Origin: a virus
IMG/VR virus record: IMGVR_UViG_3300033064_003894
Span: 62,001-126,000 of that record
Direction: 5' to 3' (one strand)
DNA: 64,000 nt
Below the pieces are notes generated by a model. It did no database searches. It was given only the letters and a program-made list of their open reading frames with translations, and was not told where the DNA came from. The translations under genes were made by a program, and so were the position numbers. Of this stretch, positions 8,515-37,955 are shown one piece after another. Numbering within the stretch: the stretch's first letter is position 1; every line of letters begins with the position of its first letter.

Positions 8515-11500
8515 ATGAGGCTTGAAAAATTCAAAGCTCACGTAGAGAAAGCAATAAGTGACTCTTTGACAGACATTTCTGTCGGTTCAGGTCAAAAAAT
8601 AAGCTTTACGGGAGTATCTATGCCAGATGCTAAATATGGCATCTCTGAAGAGATTAAGGCAAAGATGACCGGATCTTCTTATGGAATACCTGTAAGGGCC
8701 TCATTTGAGACTTTAGATGAAGAGACGGGAGAGAAAGAAAAAAAGACGGTTCAAATATTTAAATTGCCAATGAGGACAAACCGTGGCACGTTTATTTGGA
8801 ATGGTAACGAGGTAAACATTAAGAATCAATATAGGAGAAGGCCGGGAGTGTACACATATTACTCTCAGGCTGATGGAGGACTATATTCTTCTAATTTTAA
8901 TATGTCAAAGGGTAGAGCCAAATTCTCTAAGAAGGTTAGGGTAGTAATTAACCCGGAAACTCTTAAATACGAGCTTAGACTTGGTGGATCAAAATTTGAA
9001 ATATATCCAATATTAAGAGCATACGGAATGTCAGACTCTGAGATAAGTGGAATTATGGGGAAAGATCTATATGACGCAAACTATATAGATGATTATGAAA
9101 AGGTTATAAGAAAGCTAGCCAAGTTTAGGACCGGGAAAGAGTACAAGAATATAGATGACGCATCTAAAGATATTGTTTCAGAGTTTTCAGAGATATCATT
9201 TGATGGAGGTATTAATGAATACACTCTTGGAAAGGATTTCTCGTCTATAAACAAAGACTTTTGGGGCAAGGTTATCGTTAAGCTAAGAGACGTGGCTGCT
9301 GGCAAGAAAGATCCGGACGATCCAGATGCTTCTTATTTCAGAGAATATCTTGAGCCAGAAGACAACATAATTGAGGCGATAAACAGCACTGCTGCGTCAA
9401 TATCTTCTAAAATAAAACAGAGAAGGGGGAAGTCCAATATAGGTAGAATACTTCAAAATATTAATTTTGATAAAGAAGTAAATAACCTTTTCACTACTGG
9501 GTCTTTGAAGGACATAAGAGATCAGTCTAATCCTGTTGACTGGTACACAGGTCTTGACTCCTTAACAATTTACGGACCTGGAGGGATAAGTGGGGCTCTT
9601 AGTGTGACAGAAGGAATGAGGCGTCTTCAGCCAACGCTGCTTGGATTTTCTGACCCAGTAAATACTCCTGACGACGGAGATAAGGTTGGAGTTGTTCTAT
9701 ACAAGACGACTGGAGCTGTAATAAAAGACAGGAAACCTCATATTAAAGTTAAGGACAAGAGCGGAAAGACCGTGGTGCTTCCAATTATAGACTTCTATCA
9801 CCAAAAAATAGGAATTGGCGATTACTCTCAAAAAGGAAAAATAGACTTAATATTTAAAGGGTCGGCTACGACAGGACTGTCTACTGACGTTAAGTACTTC
9901 ATACCAGAAGAATATCTTTTTAGCCACACTTCGAATCTTATACCAATGATAAGCTCAACGTATGGAGTTAGAGCAAACGTAGCCTCAAAGCAGATGGGTC
10001 AAGCTCTGCCTCTAAAGGACGCGGAAGAGGCCTTTGTCCAATCTGAATATGCAAAAAACAAAAAGGCAAAGTATCTTCAGGAGGGGCTAGATATGGACGA
10101 ATACGGAAATGTTAGGTCTGTATCAAACGGAGTTGTTGACTCTGTAAGTAAGACTTCAGGAAAGATCACAATAAGGATGGATGATGGAAAGAAGGTTACT
10201 CATGATGTACCAACGCACTATCCACTTAATTCAGAAAGCTTCTCTCATAACAATATAGTAGTGTCATCTGGTGACGAGGTTAAGAAGGGTCAAGTCATCG
10301 CAGAGTCTATATTTAGTAGAAATGGTGGGCTGGCAATAGGGAAGAACTTGAGAACGGCATTCCTGCCATATAAAGGATATAATTTTGAAGATGGCTTTGT
10401 GATAAGTGAAGGCGCGTCACAAAAGATGACGTCTCTTCATATGCACAAGTTTGAGGTATCTCTTGGTGGAGGGGTAAGGGCAGGGAAGAGACTGTATGTA
10501 TCTGTATTTCCAAATAAAGCGGCTCTAATAAAGCTAGACAACTATGATGATAGCGGTTCATTGAAAGAGGGCGCGTTGGTTTCATATGGGGCACCAGTAA
10601 TACTTGCGATTGAGAACAGGGACCTTACTCCTCAGCAGGCAACTATTGCGTCATTTAACAAAACAATGGCTAGTCTCATACAACCAAAAGACGTAAGCCC
10701 TATATACGAGGTTGAGTTCCCATCTAAGGTGGTTAGGGCTTATAAGGACAATAAAAGAATTATTGTGATGATCGAAAGCGAAGAGCCAATGGTTGAAGGC
10801 GATAAAATTGCTACAAGGTATGGAGGTAAAGGGATTGTTACAAAAATAGTTCCAGATGCATTAATGCCGGCATCGGAATCTGGCGAACCTGTAGAGGTTT
10901 TGTTTAATCCGCATGGTCTTCCGAGCCGGCTTAACTCGTCTCAGATTGTGGAGAATGCTCTTGGTAAGGTGTCAGAAAAGACAGGGAAGAAGTTCTTCAT
11001 ACCTGGGTTCTCAAAAGAGAGTTTTATTGATATAGCTAAGAGGGAGCTGTCTGCTGCTGGTCTATCTGATGAGGAGACCTTAATTGACCCTGAAACTGGA
11101 AAGCGTCTAGATAGGGTAGGCGTAGGAAATATGTATTACATGAAACTTAAGCATAGCGTAAGAAAGAAGCTTAAGTCTGGAGACGTAGGAGAATATGACA
11201 CAATTTTTGAGCAGCCAAAGAAGACCGAAAGAAACACAGCGAGAGGAATAGATGGACTGTCTCTTTATTCTCTGCTAGCTTCTGGGGCAAGGGCAAACCT
11301 TGCAGACATGGCGTCAGTTAAAGCAAATAGAAACGATGAGTTCTGGCGTGCCCTTCAGATGGGCATGCCTACGCCGTCACCAAAAGATCTCACAACAACT
11401 AAATATTTTACGTCTCTTTTGACTGGAATTGGGTTAAACGTAAATAAAACAAAGGATTTTCTGTCTATATACCCAGCGACAGACTCAGATATTGAGAGGA

Positions 11501-14500
11501 GAAGTGGAGGAGAAATAAGAGAAGCAAAGTTTATAAGAAGTAGAGACCTTAAGCCAGAAGACGGAGGATTTTACGACCCTTCAATTACTGGTGGCGCAAG
11601 AGGAGAAAAGTGGTCACACATATCTATTGGAACAACCATTCCTAATCCAATATTTGAAGAGCCTATTAAGGCTGTACTTGGCCTTAACAAGGATAAGTAT
11701 ACAGGTATTATGTCAGGAAAGTATAAAGTAAATGAAGCCGGAGATATAGATGATGATGGCAAGTATTCAGGAGGATTGGCCATTAAACATATGCTTGACA
11801 TTGTTGATGTCAACGCAGAAATAGACTCAATAAGGATAGAGAGCAAGCGTTATGTTGACGAAAAAAACTGGTCTGGCTTAAATCAAGCAAACCGGAAAAT
11901 AAGAATTCTTCTGAACGCTAAAAATCTAGGAAAGCCTCTTGGATCATTGTATACCATATCTAAGATCCCTGTATTGCCTCCAAGATTTAGGCAGATGATT
12001 ATGCTTAGTGATGGGACAATTCAAAACCCGCCAATTAATGAACTATACAGCGCCATAAAGCTTGAGGCTGATGGACTTAATACAGTACGTGACATTGGTA
12101 TAGATACAGAGGAAGAGGTAGTCAAGAGGGGCAATTCTATATATAAGCATGTATCTGCCGCATTCGGCGTGTCAGATCCTGTCTCGTTTGCTCTAAGGAT
12201 GAGAGCTATTGACGGAGGCATATTAAGACAAATTTCTCCTACCGACAAGCAAATGAAGGAAGGTTTTATTGGGAAAAGAATGCTTAACAAGCCTCAGTCT
12301 TTGAGTGGAGGCTCAACAATTATTTCAGATCCGGAGCTTCCTATGGATGAAGTTGGAGTTCCTTATGAGATGGCGAAGCAGATAATGAAGCCATTTACGA
12401 TACGCAAGATGGTTCAGTCTGGTTATACTCCTCTTAATGCCATTAAGGAAATAGAGGGGGACTCTCAAATGGCTCGTATTAAACTTGAAGAGGTTGTAAA
12501 GGAGAGACCTGTTCTAGTAAATAGGCATCCATCTCTACATAAGTTCAACTTCATGTCTCAGTGGGCAAAGATTGTCCCAGGAAGCGCTATTAGGCTTAAC
12601 CCGCTCGTTACTGGCGGGCTGAATGCAGATTTCGACGGGGACTCAATGATAGGAGATATAACGATTGCGTGTAAGTCAATGGCTGGTGTTGACCCGTCTG
12701 GAGGAGTAATAGACCATTCGTATTCAAGCATTGATATTGGAGATTTCCCAAGAAATGGAATAAAAGAAACAAAGAAAAACAAAACAGTATACTTCGTTCC
12801 TCCTGGGATATACGTTCCATCTGTATCTAAAGACGGAGTTCCTGAACTAATGAGGGTTACTGAATACCACGAGCACGATAACTGTGAGGAGTATATAGTA
12901 AAGCTTCATAATGGACACACGATTACTGTAAGTGGAGATCACAGTCTTACGTACTTCAACCCTGAAACGGCAGAGTTTGATAAGGTGTCTCCTGAAAACG
13001 CCTCGCATTTAGTTATTCCTAGGCTTGTTAAATTCAAGTCTACAACAGGTGCCAAGTTCCCAGAGGTCATTGAAAGAGGCGTGGCTAGGTCAGAAATAAT
13101 TTCAACCATTGGATTTTTCTGTGCAATCCTTAGGTTTAACCCAAGGTTAAGAAGCTACTCCTTTGCAAGGCACGCGTTGCTTGAAGAGCGCGTAGACATA
13201 ATCTCCAAATATTATGGTGCAGGGATAGATAAAGGAATATTTGTATGTCGCTTTATAAGTGATTGGATCTCTAAATACATTAACTGCTCAGATGAGCCAA
13301 GAATTCCATCTTACATATTGAGTATAAACGACGATGACCGCGCGGCTTTTGTATCAGGACTGCTTCAGGGTTCATCACTTATCTCCAAAAAAGACGGTCG
13401 CGGAGACATCTTTGAATGTTTTAAAGTAAAGAACTATCTTGGAGACATGGAGATTTTATTTAGGTCAGTTGGCATAGACGCCAATACCTTTATGCAAAAG
13501 AATCAGAATAAGAGAACTCCAGTATATTTTACAATTAATGCATCTACTGGAGACATGAGAAACTTTGTGCTTGACAATCCTGGACTGTTTTCCACACAAT
13601 TCATGGACAGATTTTATAAAACAAAAATATCTGAGATACCGGCAAAGTGTGTGAGTTCTGACATAATGCCTGTGCCGGTATGGATTTCGACGTACATAAG
13701 GTACACGGTTAAGGATAGGATTGACAACGAATCATTCAACAAAATGGTTTACAATGCATACAAGGATGTTCCATACGAGAAGTGGGTCGAGTCTGGAAGT
13801 GAAGTGTGGAACAGAAGAGTTATTAAGTTTTTCTTGGACAAAATGTCTGACGAAGAGATAGCAGGGATACCAGAAAACTTCCGAAGACTTGTGTATAATG
13901 AATCTATACGTTGGGAGCTAGTTGAGAGTGTAACTAAAACTGGACGAAAGATTAGAATGTATGACCTGACAGTTGAAGAAAACAAAAACTTTGTTGACTC
14001 AAAAGGGTATCTTGTGTGGGACACGATGAACATACATGCACCTGTTTCTGATAGAGCAGTGGTTGAGGCAGCGACAAAGCTTCTACCTAGCAAATTTCTT
14101 TATGGACCAGATAGGCATATTCTTCCAATGCCAAGTAACGAGTCAATTCTTGGCATATACATGTTATCTAAGAAGACTCTTAAGGATTCAGGAGAATCCT
14201 ATTCAAGCCTGGATAAAGCAGAGGGAGACTTCCTTAGCAATAAACTAAATATGAATGACTATATTAAGCTTAATGGCAAGAAGACAACCCTTGGAGGTGA
14301 GATTTTGGTGTCTGCCGTTAAGGAAAAGTTTAAAGATAAACTTCGAGCGTCAGACATAGATAAAAAGTATCTGCAATCTTTAGTTACTGAAATATATAAG
14401 GAGTCTCCTGAAGACGCAGCAGAGGCACTTAACAAGCTCAAAGACATTGGATATAAATATTCATATTTATATGGATTTAGCATATCACTTAATGACTTTG

Positions 14501-15909
14501 ATGCTCCTAACGATTTGAGGTCATATACAAAGGGGGTTATGGATTCTTTAGGTGACGACAATAAGAACTCTGAGAAGATGGATATTAAGCTTAGGGGGGC
14601 AGAGACGAAATTCCATAAGTTCTTTGATGACAATAGGCTCATGCAAATGTCCAGATCTGGCGCTAAAGGAAGCTGGAGCAATATTGCTCAAATGCTTCTT
14701 GCCCCTGGATATATGGAAGGAGCCGGAGGAATGATAGGAGAGAATCCAGTAAAGACAGGATATGCAGAGGGCATGTCTCCGTCTGATTATCTTAATACAT
14801 TATATGCAGCAAGAAGCGGCATTGTCAGTAAAGTTAGAGGTGTGGCCAAAGGAGGAGAGCTTGCGAAGAGCGAGGTTCACACAGCTATAGAAATTGTGAT
14901 AACAGAAAAAGACTGCGGAACGATTAATGGAATATACATGGACAGAGACGATAAGTTTATTGTTGGCAGGTTTGACGTAAGAGCTAAAGAGATAGATGAA
15001 CAGTACCTGTCTTCACATAAAGGTAAGCAGATAAAAGTGAGAAGTCCGTTGACATGCGAATCAATAAAAGGACTCTGCTCTATTTGCTACGGAATAAATG
15101 ACCAAGGCGTTATGCCTAAAGTTGGAGATCACGTTGGAATTGATGCTGCTCAAAGTACAACTGAGAGAATCACACAAAGCTTACTTCGAGCATTCCACGG
15201 AGGACGAGGAGCAAAAGAAAAGGGGACGACTGACCTAGCTAAAAACCTTCACAATTTGTTCGGAAAAATGCCGAAAACGTTTTCTGGAGAAGCCCCTGTA
15301 TCTATAGAGCCTGGAGTCGTAAAAAGAATTAATAAATCTCCTGCTGGAGGGTGGGATATATACGTTGACAATGAAAGATATAGAACCAGTGTTGAGGTTG
15401 ACCCCATAGTTTCTGTTGGAGACTCTGTGTCTCGTGGTCAAAAGCTAACTACAGGAATGGAGAATCCTCGTTCAATACTAAGAACTGGAGGATTAATTGG
15501 TGCTCGTCGCTTCATAACTGGTAAAATGAGAGAGATGTATAAGGGAACAGGAGTAGACATGAATCCAGTCCATTTTGAGGTTGTAACTAGGGGATTGACA
15601 GAGCACGCTCGCGTCATAGACCCAGGAGAGAGTCAGTATGAGTATGGAGATATTGACACAATAGCAACAATTGAACACAAAATTAAAAACGGAGAAAAGG
15701 TAAGATATGAACCAATTATGGCTGGAGCAGACAGGATACCTATCTATAGAAAAGATTTCTTATCTCAATCTGCAAGGCGAGAAGGTAAGAGGGGGATTAT
15801 TGAGTCAGCAGCCTCAGGAGCAAAATCAGAGTTGCATGGCGTAAATCCATTAAACTCCTGGATGCTAGGAGAGTTTAGGCCGACTATAGGTGATGGTGGA
15901 GTATACTAA
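8515..15909 (+). CDS. Single-chain RNA polymerase: fused beta and beta-prime with intein
   Basis: 2464 codons, about 2004 residues after intein removal, shorter than separate bacterial subunits combined. Beta motifs: KGYNFEDGFVIS (about 620), GDKIATRYGGKG (about 762) and NPHGLPSRLNSSQ (about 798), with a beta C-terminal block ending near 960. Beta-prime follows without a break: IPVLPPRFRQM (about 1150), the catalytic NADFDGD at 1370-1376, a bridge-helix-like segment YLNTLYAARSG, zinc cysteines in CESIKGLCSICYG (C2181 onward) and the trigger-loop entry LLRAFHGG. It should transcribe phage genes; no sigma or alpha subunit is seen here. Confidence 0.95.
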   Translation: MRLEKFKAHVEKAISDSLTDISVGSGQKISFTGVSMPDAKYGISEEIKAKMTGSSYGIPVRASFETLDEETGEKEKKTVQIFKLPMRTNRGTFIWNGNEVNIKNQYRRRPGVYTYYSQADGGLYSSNFNMSKGRAKFSKKVRVVINPETLKYELRLGGSKFEIYPILRAYGMSDSEISGIMGKDLYDANYIDDYEKVIRKLAKFRTGKEYKNIDDASKDIVSEFSEISFDGGINEYTLGKDFSSINKDFWGKVIVKLRDVAAGKKDPDDPDASYFREYLEPEDNIIEAINSTAASISSKIKQRRGKSNIGRILQNINFDKEVNNLFTTGSLKDIRDQSNPVDWYTGLDSLTIYGPGGISGALSVTEGMRRLQPTLLGFSDPVNTPDDGDKVGVVLYKTTGAVIKDRKPHIKVKDKSGKTVVLPIIDFYHQKIGIGDYSQKGKIDLIFKGSATTGLSTDVKYFIPEEYLFSHTSNLIPMISSTYGVRANVASKQMGQALPLKDAEEAFVQSEYAKNKKAKYLQEGLDMDEYGNVRSVSNGVVDSVSKTSGKITIRMDDGKKVTHDVPTHYPLNSESFSHNNIVVSSGDEVKKGQVIAESIFSRNGGLAIGKNLRTAFLPYKGYNFEDGFVISEGASQKMTSLHMHKFEVSLGGGVRAGKRLYVSVFPNKAALIKLDNYDDSGSLKEGALVSYGAPVILAIENRDLTPQQATIASFNKTMASLIQPKDVSPIYEVEFPSKVVRAYKDNKRIIVMIESEEPMVEGDKIATRYGGKGIVTKIVPDALMPASESGEPVEVLFNPHGLPSRLNSSQIVENALGKVSEKTGKKFFIPGFSKESFIDIAKRELSAAGLSDEETLIDPETGKRLDRVGVGNMYYMKLKHSVRKKLKSGDVGEYDTIFEQPKKTERNTARGIDGLSLYSLLASGARANLADMASVKANRNDEFWRALQMGMPTPSPKDLTTTKYFTSLLTGIGLNVNKTKDFLSIYPATDSDIERRSGGEIREAKFIRSRDLKPEDGGFYDPSITGGARGEKWSHISIGTTIPNPIFEEPIKAVLGLNKDKYTGIMSGKYKVNEAGDIDDDGKYSGGLAIKHMLDIVDVNAEIDSIRIESKRYVDEKNWSGLNQANRKIRILLNAKNLGKPLGSLYTISKIPVLPPRFRQMIMLSDGTIQNPPINELYSAIKLEADGLNTVRDIGIDTEEEVVKRGNSIYKHVSAAFGVSDPVSFALRMRAIDGGILRQISPTDKQMKEGFIGKRMLNKPQSLSGGSTIISDPELPMDEVGVPYEMAKQIMKPFTIRKMVQSGYTPLNAIKEIEGDSQMARIKLEEVVKERPVLVNRHPSLHKFNFMSQWAKIVPGSAIRLNPLVTGGLNADFDGDSMIGDITIACKSMAGVDPSGGVIDHSYSSIDIGDFPRNGIKETKKNKTVYFVPPGIYVPSVSKDGVPELMRVTEYHEHDNCEEYIVKLHNGHTITVSGDHSLTYFNPETAEFDKVSPENASHLVIPRLVKFKSTTGAKFPEVIERGVARSEIISTIGFFCAILRFNPRLRSYSFARHALLEERVDIISKYYGAGIDKGIFVCRFISDWISKYINCSDEPRIPSYILSINDDDRAAFVSGLLQGSSLISKKDGRGDIFECFKVKNYLGDMEILFRSVGIDANTFMQKNQNKRTPVYFTINASTGDMRNFVLDNPGLFSTQFMDRFYKTKISEIPAKCVSSDIMPVPVWISTYIRYTVKDRIDNESFNKMVYNAYKDVPYEKWVESGSEVWNRRVIKFFLDKMSDEEIAGIPENFRRLVYNESIRWELVESVTKTGRKIRMYDLTVEENKNFVDSKGYLVWDTMNIHAPVSDRAVVEAATKLLPSKFLYGPDRHILPMPSNESILGIYMLSKKTLKDSGESYSSLDKAEGDFLSNKLNMNDYIKLNGKKTTLGGEILVSAVKEKFKDKLRASDIDKKYLQSLVTEIYKESPEDAAEALNKLKDIGYKYSYLYGFSISLNDFDAPNDLRSYTKGVMDSLGDDNKNSEKMDIKLRGAETKFHKFFDDNRLMQMSRSGAKGSWSNIAQMLLAPGYMEGAGGMIGENPVKTGYAEGMSPSDYLNTLYAARSGIVSKVRGVAKGGELAKSEVHTAIEIVITEKDCGTINGIYMDRDDKFIVGRFDVRAKEIDEQYLSSHKGKQIKVRSPLTCESIKGLCSICYGINDQGVMPKVGDHVGIDAAQSTTERITQSLLRAFHGGRGAKEKGTTDLAKNLHNLFGKMPKTFSGEAPVSIEPGVVKRINKSPAGGWDIYVDNERYRTSVEVDPIVSVGDSVSRGQKLTTGMENPRSILRTGGLIGARRFITGKMREMYKGTGVDMNPVHFEVVTRGLTEHARVIDPGESQYEYGDIDTIATIEHKIKNGEKVRYEPIMAGADRIPIYRKDFLSQSARREGKRGIIESAASGAKSELHGVNPLNSWMLGEFRPTIGDGGVY
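12643..14022 (+). mobile_element. Intein in the RNA polymerase catalytic loop
   Basis: 460 residues (1377-1836) between NADFDGD and TMNIHAPVSD, which join into a normal beta-prime active-site motif. The N-terminus SMIGDITIA fits splicing block A with Ser as residue 1; TVSGDHSLTYF fits block B; MYDLTVEENKNFV fits block F. The last residues are LVWD and the +1 residue is Thr, so the usual His-Asn end is replaced by Trp-Asp. A degenerate LAGLIDADG-like FVSGLLQGSSLI suggests a decayed homing endonuclease. Confidence 0.85.
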
Positions 15910-24545: not shown

Positions 24546-27335
24546 ATGCAGGAGATAAAGATACCAACTAGTAAGCTTATAGAAAAGGCTTTCTATGTTG
24601 ACATGGACCTTCCGTTCTCATTTAAGGAGCGTGAGTATCTTCTTCCTATATACGACAATAATGATAAAATCATTGTTCTATATTTTGCAAGACAGTCGGA
24701 AAAAAGCGTTTTAGAGTTTTCTCGTGTAATAAACCAATATGGCGAAAGAGTCCAAATAAAAGATTTGAATGTTGGAGATAAAGTCGCAACATTAAATACC
24801 GATGGCGTGACCATTGGCACAAGCCGTGTCATTTGGAAATCAAGAAGATACAAAAAAGACTGCTTAAGACTAAATACAAAACTAAATTATTCAATAGAGG
24901 TTGCAGGAACTCATCCAATTAGGCAGTGGAATCGTTGGACGGAAGCGAAAGCTTTAGCAGTTGGAGATAGAATTGCAACAGCACGTTTTATTGAGACGAA
25001 TCATGAAGAAAATAATATACCAGATGATGTAATTAAATTTATAGGATATATGATTGCTGATGGTAGTATTATAAAAGCGATAAGCTTTACGCAACGTATA
25101 GATTCTCTAGTATTGAAAGACTTTAGGGATATTTGCTCTAATATGGGATTTGTATATAGAGAACGTTACAGAAATAGTGATGTATTAATGCTTCACTTTG
25201 TGACTAAATCTCCGGCAGCAGAGTTATTGAGAAAATATGGTATTTACGGAAAATCTTCTTTTAATCATGCACTCCCCGCCTGTTTAATGAGGTTAGATCT
25301 TAGACAAACGAAAATACTTATTGAATCATTGTGGTCGTGTGATGGATATGTTAAGAAGTGCGAAGGTGAAGAGACTGACTACAAAATTTCTTACTGTTCT
25401 GTATCTAAAGGGCTATTAGAACAAATGCAGGCATTGCTCTGGAAATTTAAGATAGCTTCAAGAATAAGAAAATTTAAGCCGACCTTATATAAAGGAACGG
25501 GAAAGTATGCATATAGTTTATATGTAAGAACTAGAGAGAGTCAAAATATTTTCCATGAAACATTTAAAATTATTGGTAAAGAGTCATGCTTTGTTTGTGC
25601 CCAATCAAGAGACAACAGAGATACATTTCCTATTGAAATCAATGAGGATATATATGAATTAGAAAGGACTAGGGTGAAACCGAGAAGTCATAAGCCTCTA
25701 TATAAAAACGGTCTAAGGAAGACCTTAGAATATCCCTTAAGCAAAGTTAAATTCCGCAAATACTTAAAGCATTTCAGGACAGCTGGAGGTTATGATCAAG
25801 CATTGGTGGATAAATTAGATATACACTCAGACACGGACCTTTTTTGGGATAAGATTGAAAGCGTAGAAGATATAGGAGAACAGTGGTGTTACGACATTGA
25901 AGTAGAGGGAACGAATAATTTCTTGGTTGATGGGGTTGTCACTCATAATAGTACAACATTGGCAAATAAAATACTTTTAAATAGTATTACGAACAGGAGA
26001 TTTAGATCTCTTTACGTCACCTCAGCGGATGCTCAGGCTAAAGAATTTTCAGTAGATAAGCTGCAACCTAAATTAAAGTATTCTCCGACAATAAATAGGC
26101 ACTTTTGGGGCTCTCAGCCAGAAGCAGACAACGTGTTTTCTAAAGAGCTTAAGAATGGAAGCAGAATATTGATAAGGAGTATGTTTAAGAGTGCAGATAG
26201 GATAAGGGGAATTTCAGCAGACCTCCTGGCGGTCGACGAATTGCAGGACATAAATCCTGATTTCCTCGCAGTAGCGGAAGAGTGTCTTTCTCACTCAAAT
26301 TATAAGCTAAGAATGTATGCTGGGACGCCTGACACCGCTTTGGATGCATTAGATCAGGTCTGGTCATTTTCTGATAAAACAGAGTTCGTATTTAAATGTC
26401 CTAAAGGCCATTGGAACAGACAAGACCATGCAATGGTGGCAAGAATTACCAAGGCTGGAATTTTATGCAAAACATGTGGAGAGGTATTAGATAGGCGTAC
26501 CGGTGAATGGGTGGTTATGAATAAACAAGGAAGATATAAAGGATACAGAACTAGTCAAATGATGGTGCCGTGGATAACGGTTGATGAGCTTATAGATAAA
26601 AGAGAGCGTTACTCATCTAAGAGGTTTTTTAACGAAGTTGCAGCTCTTCCTTATGATGCGATAGGTGCTCCTATAAATGAAGGGCACTTAAGAAAATGTT
26701 GCGATGAAGGGTTTAAGATGATCAAAGACGGGGTCTATCCAAAAATAGATAGAAATGTTCATGTATTTATGGGCTCCGATTGGGGCTCTGGGTCCGCCTC
26801 ATACACAGTAATAAGTTTTTGGGCTCATATAGGTGGGAAGTGGACGCTGTTAAGGGCAAAGAAATATACAGGCGTCGAGTCTGATCCGGCTTTACAAATG
26901 AATTTAATACTATCTGAAATGGACAGAATTAATCCTATAAGAGTAGGGTCTGACTGGGGGTTTGGATTCCTTAACAACGCTCAACTAAAACTTCATTATA
27001 AAAAGGGTGAGGTGTGTGAAATATTTAGCAGTTCTGGAGCTAGCCCGATAACTAGAGACAGCTTATCTGGAAGGTTTGTGATCAACAGGTCATATATGAT
27101 GAGCAGAGTATTTAATATGATATTAGAGGAGAGGGTAAGGTTCCCGTGCTGGGAAGACTTTGCTCAGTTTGCTCCAGACATTCTTTCTATTAGAGCTGAC
27201 GACCCGGATGAAAAGCCAGGACAGAGACAGATAAAATATGTACGTGTTGCGCCAGATGATTTTTTTCATTCAATGATGTACGCATTAATTATGGGTGAAA
27301 TTCATACAGGAAAGCTCTTGATAGATGCCATTTGA
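24546..27335 (+). CDS. terL: Terminase large subunit with intein
   Basis: 929 codons, 514 residues after intein removal. The spliced Walker A reads FARQSEK-STTLAN; Walker B is LLAVDELQD (D564, E565). A zinc ribbon (FKCPKGHW, CKTCGEVLDR) follows, then the nuclease domain with FMGSDWGSG and RVGSDWGFGF and acidic residues near the end. The enzyme pumps DNA into the prohead and cuts genome ends. It is the last plus-strand gene before an opposed block. Confidence 0.9.
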   Translation: MQEIKIPTSKLIEKAFYVDMDLPFSFKEREYLLPIYDNNDKIIVLYFARQSEKSVLEFSRVINQYGERVQIKDLNVGDKVATLNTDGVTIGTSRVIWKSRRYKKDCLRLNTKLNYSIEVAGTHPIRQWNRWTEAKALAVGDRIATARFIETNHEENNIPDDVIKFIGYMIADGSIIKAISFTQRIDSLVLKDFRDICSNMGFVYRERYRNSDVLMLHFVTKSPAAELLRKYGIYGKSSFNHALPACLMRLDLRQTKILIESLWSCDGYVKKCEGEETDYKISYCSVSKGLLEQMQALLWKFKIASRIRKFKPTLYKGTGKYAYSLYVRTRESQNIFHETFKIIGKESCFVCAQSRDNRDTFPIEINEDIYELERTRVKPRSHKPLYKNGLRKTLEYPLSKVKFRKYLKHFRTAGGYDQALVDKLDIHSDTDLFWDKIESVEDIGEQWCYDIEVEGTNNFLVDGVVTHNSTTLANKILLNSITNRRFRSLYVTSADAQAKEFSVDKLQPKLKYSPTINRHFWGSQPEADNVFSKELKNGSRILIRSMFKSADRIRGISADLLAVDELQDINPDFLAVAEECLSHSNYKLRMYAGTPDTALDALDQVWSFSDKTEFVFKCPKGHWNRQDHAMVARITKAGILCKTCGEVLDRRTGEWVVMNKQGRYKGYRTSQMMVPWITVDELIDKRERYSSKRFFNEVAALPYDAIGAPINEGHLRKCCDEGFKMIKDGVYPKIDRNVHVFMGSDWGSGSASYTVISFWAHIGGKWTLLRAKKYTGVESDPALQMNLILSEMDRINPIRVGSDWGFGFLNNAQLKLHYKKGEVCEIFSSSGASPITRDSLSGRFVINRSYMMSRVFNMILEERVRFPCWEDFAQFAPDILSIRADDPDEKPGQRQIKYVRVAPDDFFHSMMYALIMGEIHTGKLLIDAI
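24705..25949 (+). mobile_element. LAGLIDADG intein in terminase Walker A
   Basis: 415 residues (54-468) from SVLEFSRV to VDGVVTHN, followed by Ser +1. It has block B (VAGTHPIRQW), two LAGLIDADG helices (FIGYMIADGSI near 166 and LIESLWSCDGYV near 260) and block F/G (CYDIEVEGTNNF to THN). All splicing residues and the endonuclease look intact, so this intein should be active and mobile. The insertion splits the ATP-binding loop, so the terminase should be inactive until splicing. Confidence 0.9.
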
Positions 27336-36711: not shown

Positions 36712-36795
36712 TATTTTACCTTCTTCTTGACCAGCACTAAAATTGACTGAGAGATTGGTGGGGGAGGTGGGACTTGAACCCACGACCAACGAATT

Positions 36796-37245
36796 CACAT
36801 TTGTGTTGGTTTCCCAACTCTGTGGACTATTTCACACCCGTCGACTTTACGTTACGGGCCGGGTTGTTATTTCCGGTAATTAAGAAGACTGTACTTCTCC
36901 GGTAGTCTCTGAACCTTCAAGCGGTGTACCGCAAGATTGGCTGCAGATTGCCATTTCCGATAAGTTATAAGAAGTCATCCATTTTTTTATGGCTGCATGA
37001 CTTACTCCAAACATTTTCCCAACTTTGTTGAACGAGTTTTCATTAAGAAGATTTGTAAGTTCCTCTCTTGATGGACGATCAACTTTTCTGGAATGTATCC
37101 TGTAGCACTGAACGGAGCAGAACTCTCTCTGTCTTCGCTGCAATGTAGACCCACAGTGACACCTTTCTGTTACCTTATCGACTTTAGGTTTCCTGCAATT
37201 AAACCCGATCCCAACGGATCTTTCGAGTCCATTGGCACCTAGCTG
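36796..37245 (-). mobile_element. Group I intron in tRNA(CAT)
   Basis: 450 nt. Core elements are readable: P (AATTGCAGGAAACC, 37187-37200), Q (AATCTGCAGCCAATC, 36935-36949), R (GGTTCAGAGACTACC, 36901-36915) and S (AAATAGTCC, 36824-36832); GACTA of R pairs with TAGTC of S (P7). The exon ends in T and the intron ends in G, as group I splicing needs. The open frame at 36880-37143 lies between P and R and includes Q. Confidence 0.85.
36880..37143 (-). CDS. Intron-encoded Zn/HTH protein, likely homing-nuclease remnant
   Basis: 87 residues from a TTG. REFCSVQCYRIHSRK continues a zinc knuckle whose first pair (CHCG) lies in frame just upstream, and EELTNLLNENSF to KMFGVSHAAIKKWM is a helix-turn-helix as in HNH homing endonucleases. 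No HNH catalytic motif and no in-frame ATG are seen, so it may be a decayed nuclease or start at a non-AUG codon further upstream. The frame ends inside the intron core. Confidence 0.5.
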   Translation of the reverse strand: MQRRQREFCSVQCYRIHSRKVDRPSREELTNLLNENSFNKVGKMFGVSHAAIKKWMTSYNLSEMAICSQSCGTPLEGSETTGEVQSS

Positions 37246-37407
37246 ATGAGTTCGCTGCTCTAAACCAACTGAGCTACACCCCCATTTTTATTTAAGGGAA
37301 TGGCACGGGGTTTATCCGTAATTATTAGCCTACTTGGTTTGATTTTTCTAGAATATTACAAACGGTTCGCTATCTAACTGATTATCTAGTAATCACGCAT
37401 TCTTTTT

Positions 37408-37881: not shown

Positions 37882-37955
37882 TACTATCGGCTGGACTCGA
37901 ACCAGCAACCTTTCGCATATGAAACGAATGCTCTATCCGGTTGAGCTACGATAGC
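37882..37955 (-). tRNA. tRNA-Met(CAT), elongator type
   Basis: Acceptor GCTATCG/CGATAGT, anticodon stem TTCGT/GCGAA with loop TTCATAT, T-arm GCTGG/CCAGC. It lacks initiator features. It is the second CAT-anticodon tRNA besides the intron-containing one, so one of the two may be Ile2. Confidence 0.8.

Follow-up and report, generated by a model that had tools for sequence, protein, structure and literature searches.

A group I intron that splits a phage tRNA(CAU) gene behind the anticodon and carries a probable relic of an HNH homing endonuclease

Introduction

A review of 2014 located every phage group I intron then known in protein genes, despite the many tRNA genes of phages (PMC3984707). 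Two systems cited there are close to the present one: the group IC3 intron of the Azoarcus tRNA-Ile(CAU) gene, with a crystal structure, and a cyanobacterial tRNA-fMet(CAU) intron with the endonuclease I-SspI (Bonocora and Shub 2001; PMC3984707). For phage tRNA genes, the introns of the Lak phages are, by their authors' own account, the first report; they are called 'enigmatic', and the accessible part of the article leaves their class open (Devoto 2019, PMC6784885). Group I introns in the T loops of bacterial tmRNA were described in 2025 (PMC11915505), and an intron endonuclease aids one jumbo phage against a co-infecting one, according to the accessible part of that study (PMC11620839).

The window considered here is a stretch of 64,000 nucleotides that spans positions 62001-126000 in a virus record of 139,837 bases. 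On its minus strand, a tRNA(CAU) gene is interrupted by a 450-nt intron (Table 1). Like the Azoarcus intron, this intron presumably lies after CAU, is guided by a CAU/GUG pairing and has an omega G; the two 3' ends are presumably alike as well. The tRNA(CAU) anticodon is common to both, the Azoarcus gene being a tRNA-Ile. The Azoarcus intron, however, is bacterial, ~205 nt long and devoid of an ORF and of P7.1/P7.2, whereas the phage intron possesses P7.1/P7.2 and a probable endonuclease relic in L5. The I-SspI intron, compared by description, likewise belongs to group I and encodes an endonuclease whose target is the anticodon region of a CAU tRNA, but it resides in a cellular gene; the window intron resides in a phage tRNA and encodes a truncated HNH protein with a Zn/HTH tail. 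I-SspI reportedly belongs to an endonuclease class other than HNH. The introns of the Lak megaphages lie in phage tRNA genes, as in the window, but the accessible part of their description, on which the comparison is based, gives neither a group I assignment nor an endonuclease (PMC6784885).

The Split tRNA Gene and Its Group I Intron

The split gene was missed by plain ARAGORN and by Rfam at curated cut-offs. With introns allowed, ARAGORN recovered a split tRNA (36756-37283) with a 450-nt intron, its junction placed one base off. The 5' exon ends with CUCAU (37246), the last intron base is a G (36796), and the 3' exon begins with AAUUCG. Once joined, the exons form a 78-nt tRNA-(cat) according to ARAGORN, in whose acceptor stem a single position (6-67) is a U.U mismatch. 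The original prediction had placed a group I intron on exactly this span, after anticodon position 36, with P, Q, R and S elements, a terminal G and exons folding into a full tRNA. All of this was borne out, and the Rfam covariance search that it had proposed returned a full-length match at an open threshold: RF00028 (Intron_gpI) aligns over model positions 1-253 of 253, with 49.5 bits and E=1.4e-11. The default scan missed the intron because this score lies 0.5 bit under the gathering score of 50 bits, probably as a result of the 230-nt insert in L5. A covariance model named R1, built from 13 relatives with the window sequence excluded and the ORF loops removed, matches 36786-37038 with 114.9 bits (E=2e-36); it also gives an 18-bit piece corresponding to the 5' part of the intron, split off by the L5 insert.

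Table 1. Positions in the window of the split tRNA gene, the elements of its intron and the second CAT tRNA.
Feature	Position	Strand	Description	Evidence
tRNA(CAU) 5' exon	37246..37283	-	GGGGGUG...GCGAACUCAU; last base is anticodon position 36; in full, GGGGGUGUAGCUCAGUUGGUUUAGAGCAGCGAACUCAU	ARAGORN with introns, joined tRNA
Group I intron	36796..37245	-	450 nt, omega G at 36796	RF00028 full length and model R1
P1	37236..37248	-	exon CAU and intron C (37248-37245) with IGS GGUG (37239-37236); U-1.G wobble; L1 is AGCUA	
P2	37211..37235	-	CCAAU-GGAcUC-GAAA-GAUCC-GUUGG; GAAA tetraloop	
P3	36859..37208	-	UCGGGUU (37208-37202) with AACCCGG (36865-36859); 7 bp; covaries in relatives	
P4	36941..37198	-	UUGCAG (37198-37193) with CUGCAG (36946-36941); elements P and Q; 6 bp	
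L5 insert	36958..37185	-	Zn-knuckle and HTH half of HNH homing endonuclease (probable relic); frame continues to TAA in P7.2	
R and S	36825..36915	-	R is GGUUCAGAGACUA (36915-36903); P7 GACUA/UAGUC (36907-36903 with 36829-36825), 5 bp	
P7.1 and P7.2	36873..36902	-	CCGG/CCGG and AGAAG/CUUCU; ORF stop TAA on 3' side of P7.2	
P8	36837..36858	-	CCCGU/ACGGG; 5 bp	
P9.0 and P9	36796..36824	-	CACA/UGUG (36824-36821 with 36799-36796); GUUGG-GAAA-CCAAC (36818-36805), 5 bp, GAAA loop	
tRNA(CAU) 3' exon	36756..36795	-	AAUUCG...CUCCCCC-A-CCA, CCA encoded; in full, AAUUCGUUGGUCGUGGGUUCAAGUCCCACCUCCCCCACCA	ARAGORN with introns, joined tRNA
Second CAT tRNA, uninterrupted	37882..37955	-		tRNA scan

Every core helix can be drawn in the window intron: the core of P3, P4, P6, P7 and P8 is present, together with the U-1.G wobble in P1 and the 3'-terminal G. 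Among the 13 relatives, P1 is nearly invariant, its U.G wobble is invariant in all of them, and P7.1 covaries. The 3' splice site is supported by the covariation of P9.0, for which the compensatory pairs CACG/CGUG, CAAG/CUUG, CAGG/CCUG and CAUG/CAUG are found. A convincing P10 was not found in the window intron. P6a contains a tandem U.U, and both P6a and P5 are weaker than in the relatives, which was judged tolerable. Subgroup IC3 is typical of bacterial tRNA introns. It has no P7.1/P7.2 between R and the 3' strand of P3; judged from its helices, the window intron, with P7.1 and P7.2 at this place, lies outside the subgroup.

The fold is also recognizable in the alignment of the 13 relatives, which share the insertion site. 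With the window left out, 94.4% of the pairs over the structure from P1 to P9.0 are standard, and changes on both sides are seen in 38 of the 58 helix pairs, vs. 23.7 in shuffles (0 of 500 shuffles reached this number). When the partners are shifted by one column, pairing falls to 36-42%; the structure was drawn on one of the 13 aligned sequences, which inflates part of this pairing contrast but not the double-sided changes. The blind model R1 and the covariation rule out two tRNA halves lying side by side by chance. At other loci, many of the ARAGORN intron calls turned out to be false joins of adjacent tRNAs.

Identity of the Interrupted tRNA

Two CAT tRNAs coexist in the window, as had been noted before, and the original prediction left open whether the interrupted copy is Ile2 or a spare. 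The first of these is now favored: the interrupted tRNA(CAU) is probably an AUA-reading Ile2, since the gene on the E. coli chromosome that matches the joined tRNA best is annotated as tRNA-Ile and AUA is heavily used. In the long ORFs of the window, AUA accounts for 48% of the Ile codons (38.7 per 1000 codons), so that a CAU tRNA-Ile2 would be valuable. The other CAT tRNA is without a close E. coli counterpart.

A methionine tRNA is an alternative reading, though an unlikely one. ARAGORN and most phage annotators call such genes tRNA-Met, going by the anticodon alone. Against this stand the match to tRNA-Ile, the resemblance of the exons to other viral CAU tRNAs of Ile2 look, and the AUA codons, which require an Ile2-type tRNA. 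Direct alignment gives 54 for the E. coli Ile2 and 51.5 for the elongator Met, a small margin obtained with three reference tRNAs. For the favored Ile2, a lysidine at C34 would be needed; no TilS-type ATP_bind_3 domain was found in the phage record, so this modification would come from the host.

The Open Reading Frame of L5

A frame of 133 codons runs from the 5' exon into P7.2, and a frame of this kind stays open by chance in only ~0.09% of Markov shuffles. The Zn/HTH module predicted between P and R, in a frame running into the core, is present; what changes is its interpretation, as it corresponds to the C-terminal half of an HNH homing endonuclease and is probably a relic. The frame matches the HNH endonuclease family phrog_15471 (E=1.9e-12), but only over about positions 99-176 of 183. 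Over 101 residues, it shares 47% identity with the endonuclease of the related intron L244; it retains the HTH motif, and its end, ...GSETTGEVQSS, falls at a stop corresponding to that of the relatives.

Relatives of 751-775 nt in other viral contigs encode the whole endonuclease, which is full-length in L194, L244, L228, L232, L241 and L303. In these introns, the protein is threaded through the ribozyme. The HNH_3 domain (E=1.8e-8 and 7.6e-10) is located in L1; the linker between the HNH and Zn/HTH parts is encoded by the guide sequence, by P2 and by the 5' sides of P3 and P4; Zn and HTH are encoded in L5; and, in several of them, P6, R and P7.1/P7.2 encode the C-terminus, e.g., ...GAETTGEVQSS. 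ORFs overlapping the core of a group I intron are already known (PMC3984707), and no description of an endonuclease split across two loops (L1/L5) was found in a non-exhaustive literature search.

In the window, L1 consists of five bases and the HNH half is missing; a search for HNH_3 domains over the whole 139,837-base record found none. The frame also lacks a usable start codon: there is no in-frame ATG, GTG or TTG ahead of the Zn knuckle, the first one falling inside it. The first knuckle itself reads C-x-C, vs. C-x2-C in the relatives. Judging by these features, the window frame is probably an endonuclease relic from which the N-terminal HNH half in L1 and the start codon were lost. The direction of change would be a loss, and not a gain, of the HNH half, and mobility would have been lost as well. 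A frame of 133 open codons is longer than an old relic would be expected to show, which points either to a recent loss or to a tail that has stayed in use.

This last option could mean a working Zn/HTH protein that binds DNA or RNA, translated from another initiation codon, such as the TTG at 37143, and acting as a maturase or regulator. The length of the frame and the preserved HTH motif point in this direction, but a working protein is quite improbable: no start codon precedes the Zn knuckle, this knuckle departs from that of the relatives, the overlap with the ribozyme core means that the frame is partly kept by the RNA constraint, and compact relatives keep the fold without any ORF. These compact introns measure 234-244 nt. 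The intact, truncated and empty states of the endonuclease at one site fit the gain and loss cycle of homing endonucleases, and the relic reading places the window intron at the truncated stage.

The closest isolate relatives of the intron endonuclease are the PHIKZ296 HNH proteins of phiKZ-like phages (40-45% identity), also encoded beside tRNA genes. PHIKZ296, unlike the intron endonuclease, is a free-standing gene; a group I intron was looked for around the phiKZ HNH gene, and none was seen. In phiKZ (NC_004629.1, L304:2268-3118), a tRNA-Asn(GTT) is present as two halves whose acceptor strands pair perfectly, and between them lies a cassette made of another tRNA (annotated Asn, with a long variable arm) and PHIKZ296. 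PA1C and Psa21 retain the 5' part of the tRNA and the cassette. It looks like an endonuclease that landed, with a replacement tRNA, in the anticodon loop of a tRNA.

Predicted Splicing and Mobility

The reading in which a group I ribozyme splits a tRNA(CAU), most likely Ile2, at 36/37, and descends in disarmed form from a mobile HNH-armed lineage, still splicing but without homing of its own, is held with high confidence. From its sequence, the intron very probably removes itself. After transcription, it would fold into the P3-P7-P8 core, with P2 and P9 capped by GAAA loops. The bond between CAU and C, presented by P1 (CAUC/GGUG, with the U-1.G wobble), would be attacked by an external guanosine. 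In the second step, the 3' OH of CAU would attack behind the omega G, which P9.0 positions, and ligation of the exons would give the 78-nt tRNA. Host enzymes would finish the tRNA, including TilS in the case of Ile2.

The ancestor would be a mobile lineage of phage tRNA introns with the HNH endonuclease threaded through the ribozyme, the HNH part in L1, Zn/HTH in L5 and the C-terminus encoded by the core. The window copy, without the HNH half and the start codon, would have kept splicing while autonomous homing is gone; its transmission would be vertical or would depend on a related endonuclease acting in trans. That the intron has kept its shape but is inactive, the tRNA gene being a pseudogene whose work is done by the other CAT tRNA, is very improbable: the U.U of the acceptor stem, the P6a mismatches and the existence of a second CAT tRNA speak for it, but the catalytic elements P3, P4, P7, omega G and P9.0 are all kept, AUA is heavily used, and a dead intron in phage DNA is expected to vanish or decay fast. 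A neighboring NMN adenylyltransferase-like gene was tried as a route to an intronless allele and abandoned, its phage relatives being too distant (37-48% identity).

Introns in Other Viral tRNA Genes

In viral contigs, 94 stretches were found in which a tRNA T arm comes after an S element. The parser required the acceptor, D, anticodon and T stems, a 7-nt loop, a U before the intron and a G at its end. It recognized 42 distinct split tRNAs with group I-like introns in the anticodon loop, group I membership being confirmed by models for part of them. Fourteen of the 42, the window included, are split between CAU and AA and 11 at UCU, the rest being split at UGU, UAA, UUU, GUU and UCA; some of the non-CAU junctions are ambiguous by one or two bases. 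The CAU-type 3'-end pattern occurs in 27 viral contigs, and the 5' exon, where parsable, reads CUCAU, with AA after the intron. The bacterial counts are an underestimate, as they come from a genome-collection scan with a version of the pattern whose minimum gap was too large. The window intron shares with this phage tRNA(CAU) family the CUCAU and AA flanks, P9.0 and the 3' end ACAAAyNUG. In a FastTree tree of 157 columns, it pairs with L257 (support 0.81), whose splice site is likewise UCAU; the deep branches are unsupported and no claim is built on this tree.

Related cores are also found outside this family. The cyanobacterial tRNA-Arg(CCU) introns (L311, L314-L328) share the 36/37 site and have a related core and 3' end, reaching at most 141 bits with R1, but they belong to another isotype and to cells, and in several of them, P7.1/P7.2 are missing and R leads directly to the P3 strand. 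Phage introns of the P7.1/P7.2 type occur outside tRNA genes (psbA of S-SRM01; crAss phages; L061, L064-L066, L082), with a closely related core scoring 90-144 bits with R1. Among the 129 P7.1/P7.2-type cores parsed from the matches listed, only that of the window lies in a convincing split tRNA; the same holds among the Q-R-core matches listed (at least 120 stretches). In the crAss phage cr55_1, a RAGATH-22 RNA (L062:544-744) lies ~650 bases upstream of the group I intron, to which an HNH gene adjoins on the opposite strand.

Other viral tRNA(CAU) genes, in L011, L016, L031 and L051, carry an IC3-like intron at 36/37 scoring at most 33 bits with R1, and those of L355-L357 carry introns at this site that are Azoarcus-like by eye. 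From such sequences, different intron lineages appear to share the insertion site 36/37 of viral tRNA(CAU). A related intron (180 bits) is found in the tRNA(CAU) of a Bdellovibrionota genome bin (L293, L310), in a phage contig or the host chromosome.

Group I tRNA introns are known from bacteria; what is new is a recurrent family in phage tRNA genes, where such insertions prove to be frequent but have rarely been described. The literature searched, which includes few subscription journals, yielded no report of this family. With the window intron, one from a phage tRNA is now assigned to group I, tied to a one-site family and linked to its homing endonuclease, whose intact, truncated and absent forms capture stages of the homing cycle within a tRNA. 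A wider picture is conceivable, if somewhat less likely than not: the anticodon loops of phage tRNAs (Ile2, Arg(UCU), Asn, Lys, Thr, Leu and UCA suppressor-like) would harbor a broad, mostly undescribed group I population, one lineage of which, that of the window, would be an HNH-armed weapon of rival phages against tRNA genes, the window copy being immune and disarmed. Standard tRNA finders miss or misname split genes, which may leave gaps in the tRNA sets of phages, in arguments from codon usage and in counts of suppressor tRNAs. In viral contigs L230, L277 and L266, introns apparently split tRNAs with the anticodon UCA (UGA suppressor-like), so suppressor tRNAs may escape plain tRNA finders.

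Several other features were noticed. In a 735-kb phage (LR756501.1, L063:1040-1680), the T loop of a tmRNA-like gene is apparently interrupted by a group I intron of the P7.1/P7.2 type, scoring 96 bits with RF00028 and 125 bits with R1. A ROOL RNA (L014:5626-6308, 282 bits) adjoins a dense viral tRNA cluster. In the window itself, a large terminase-like ORF (24546-27335, plus strand), read by eye, seemingly contains an intein, and a 2464-aa ORF (8515-15909, plus strand) looks, also by eye, like a fused RNA polymerase beta/beta' with an intein at the NADFDGD active-site motif.
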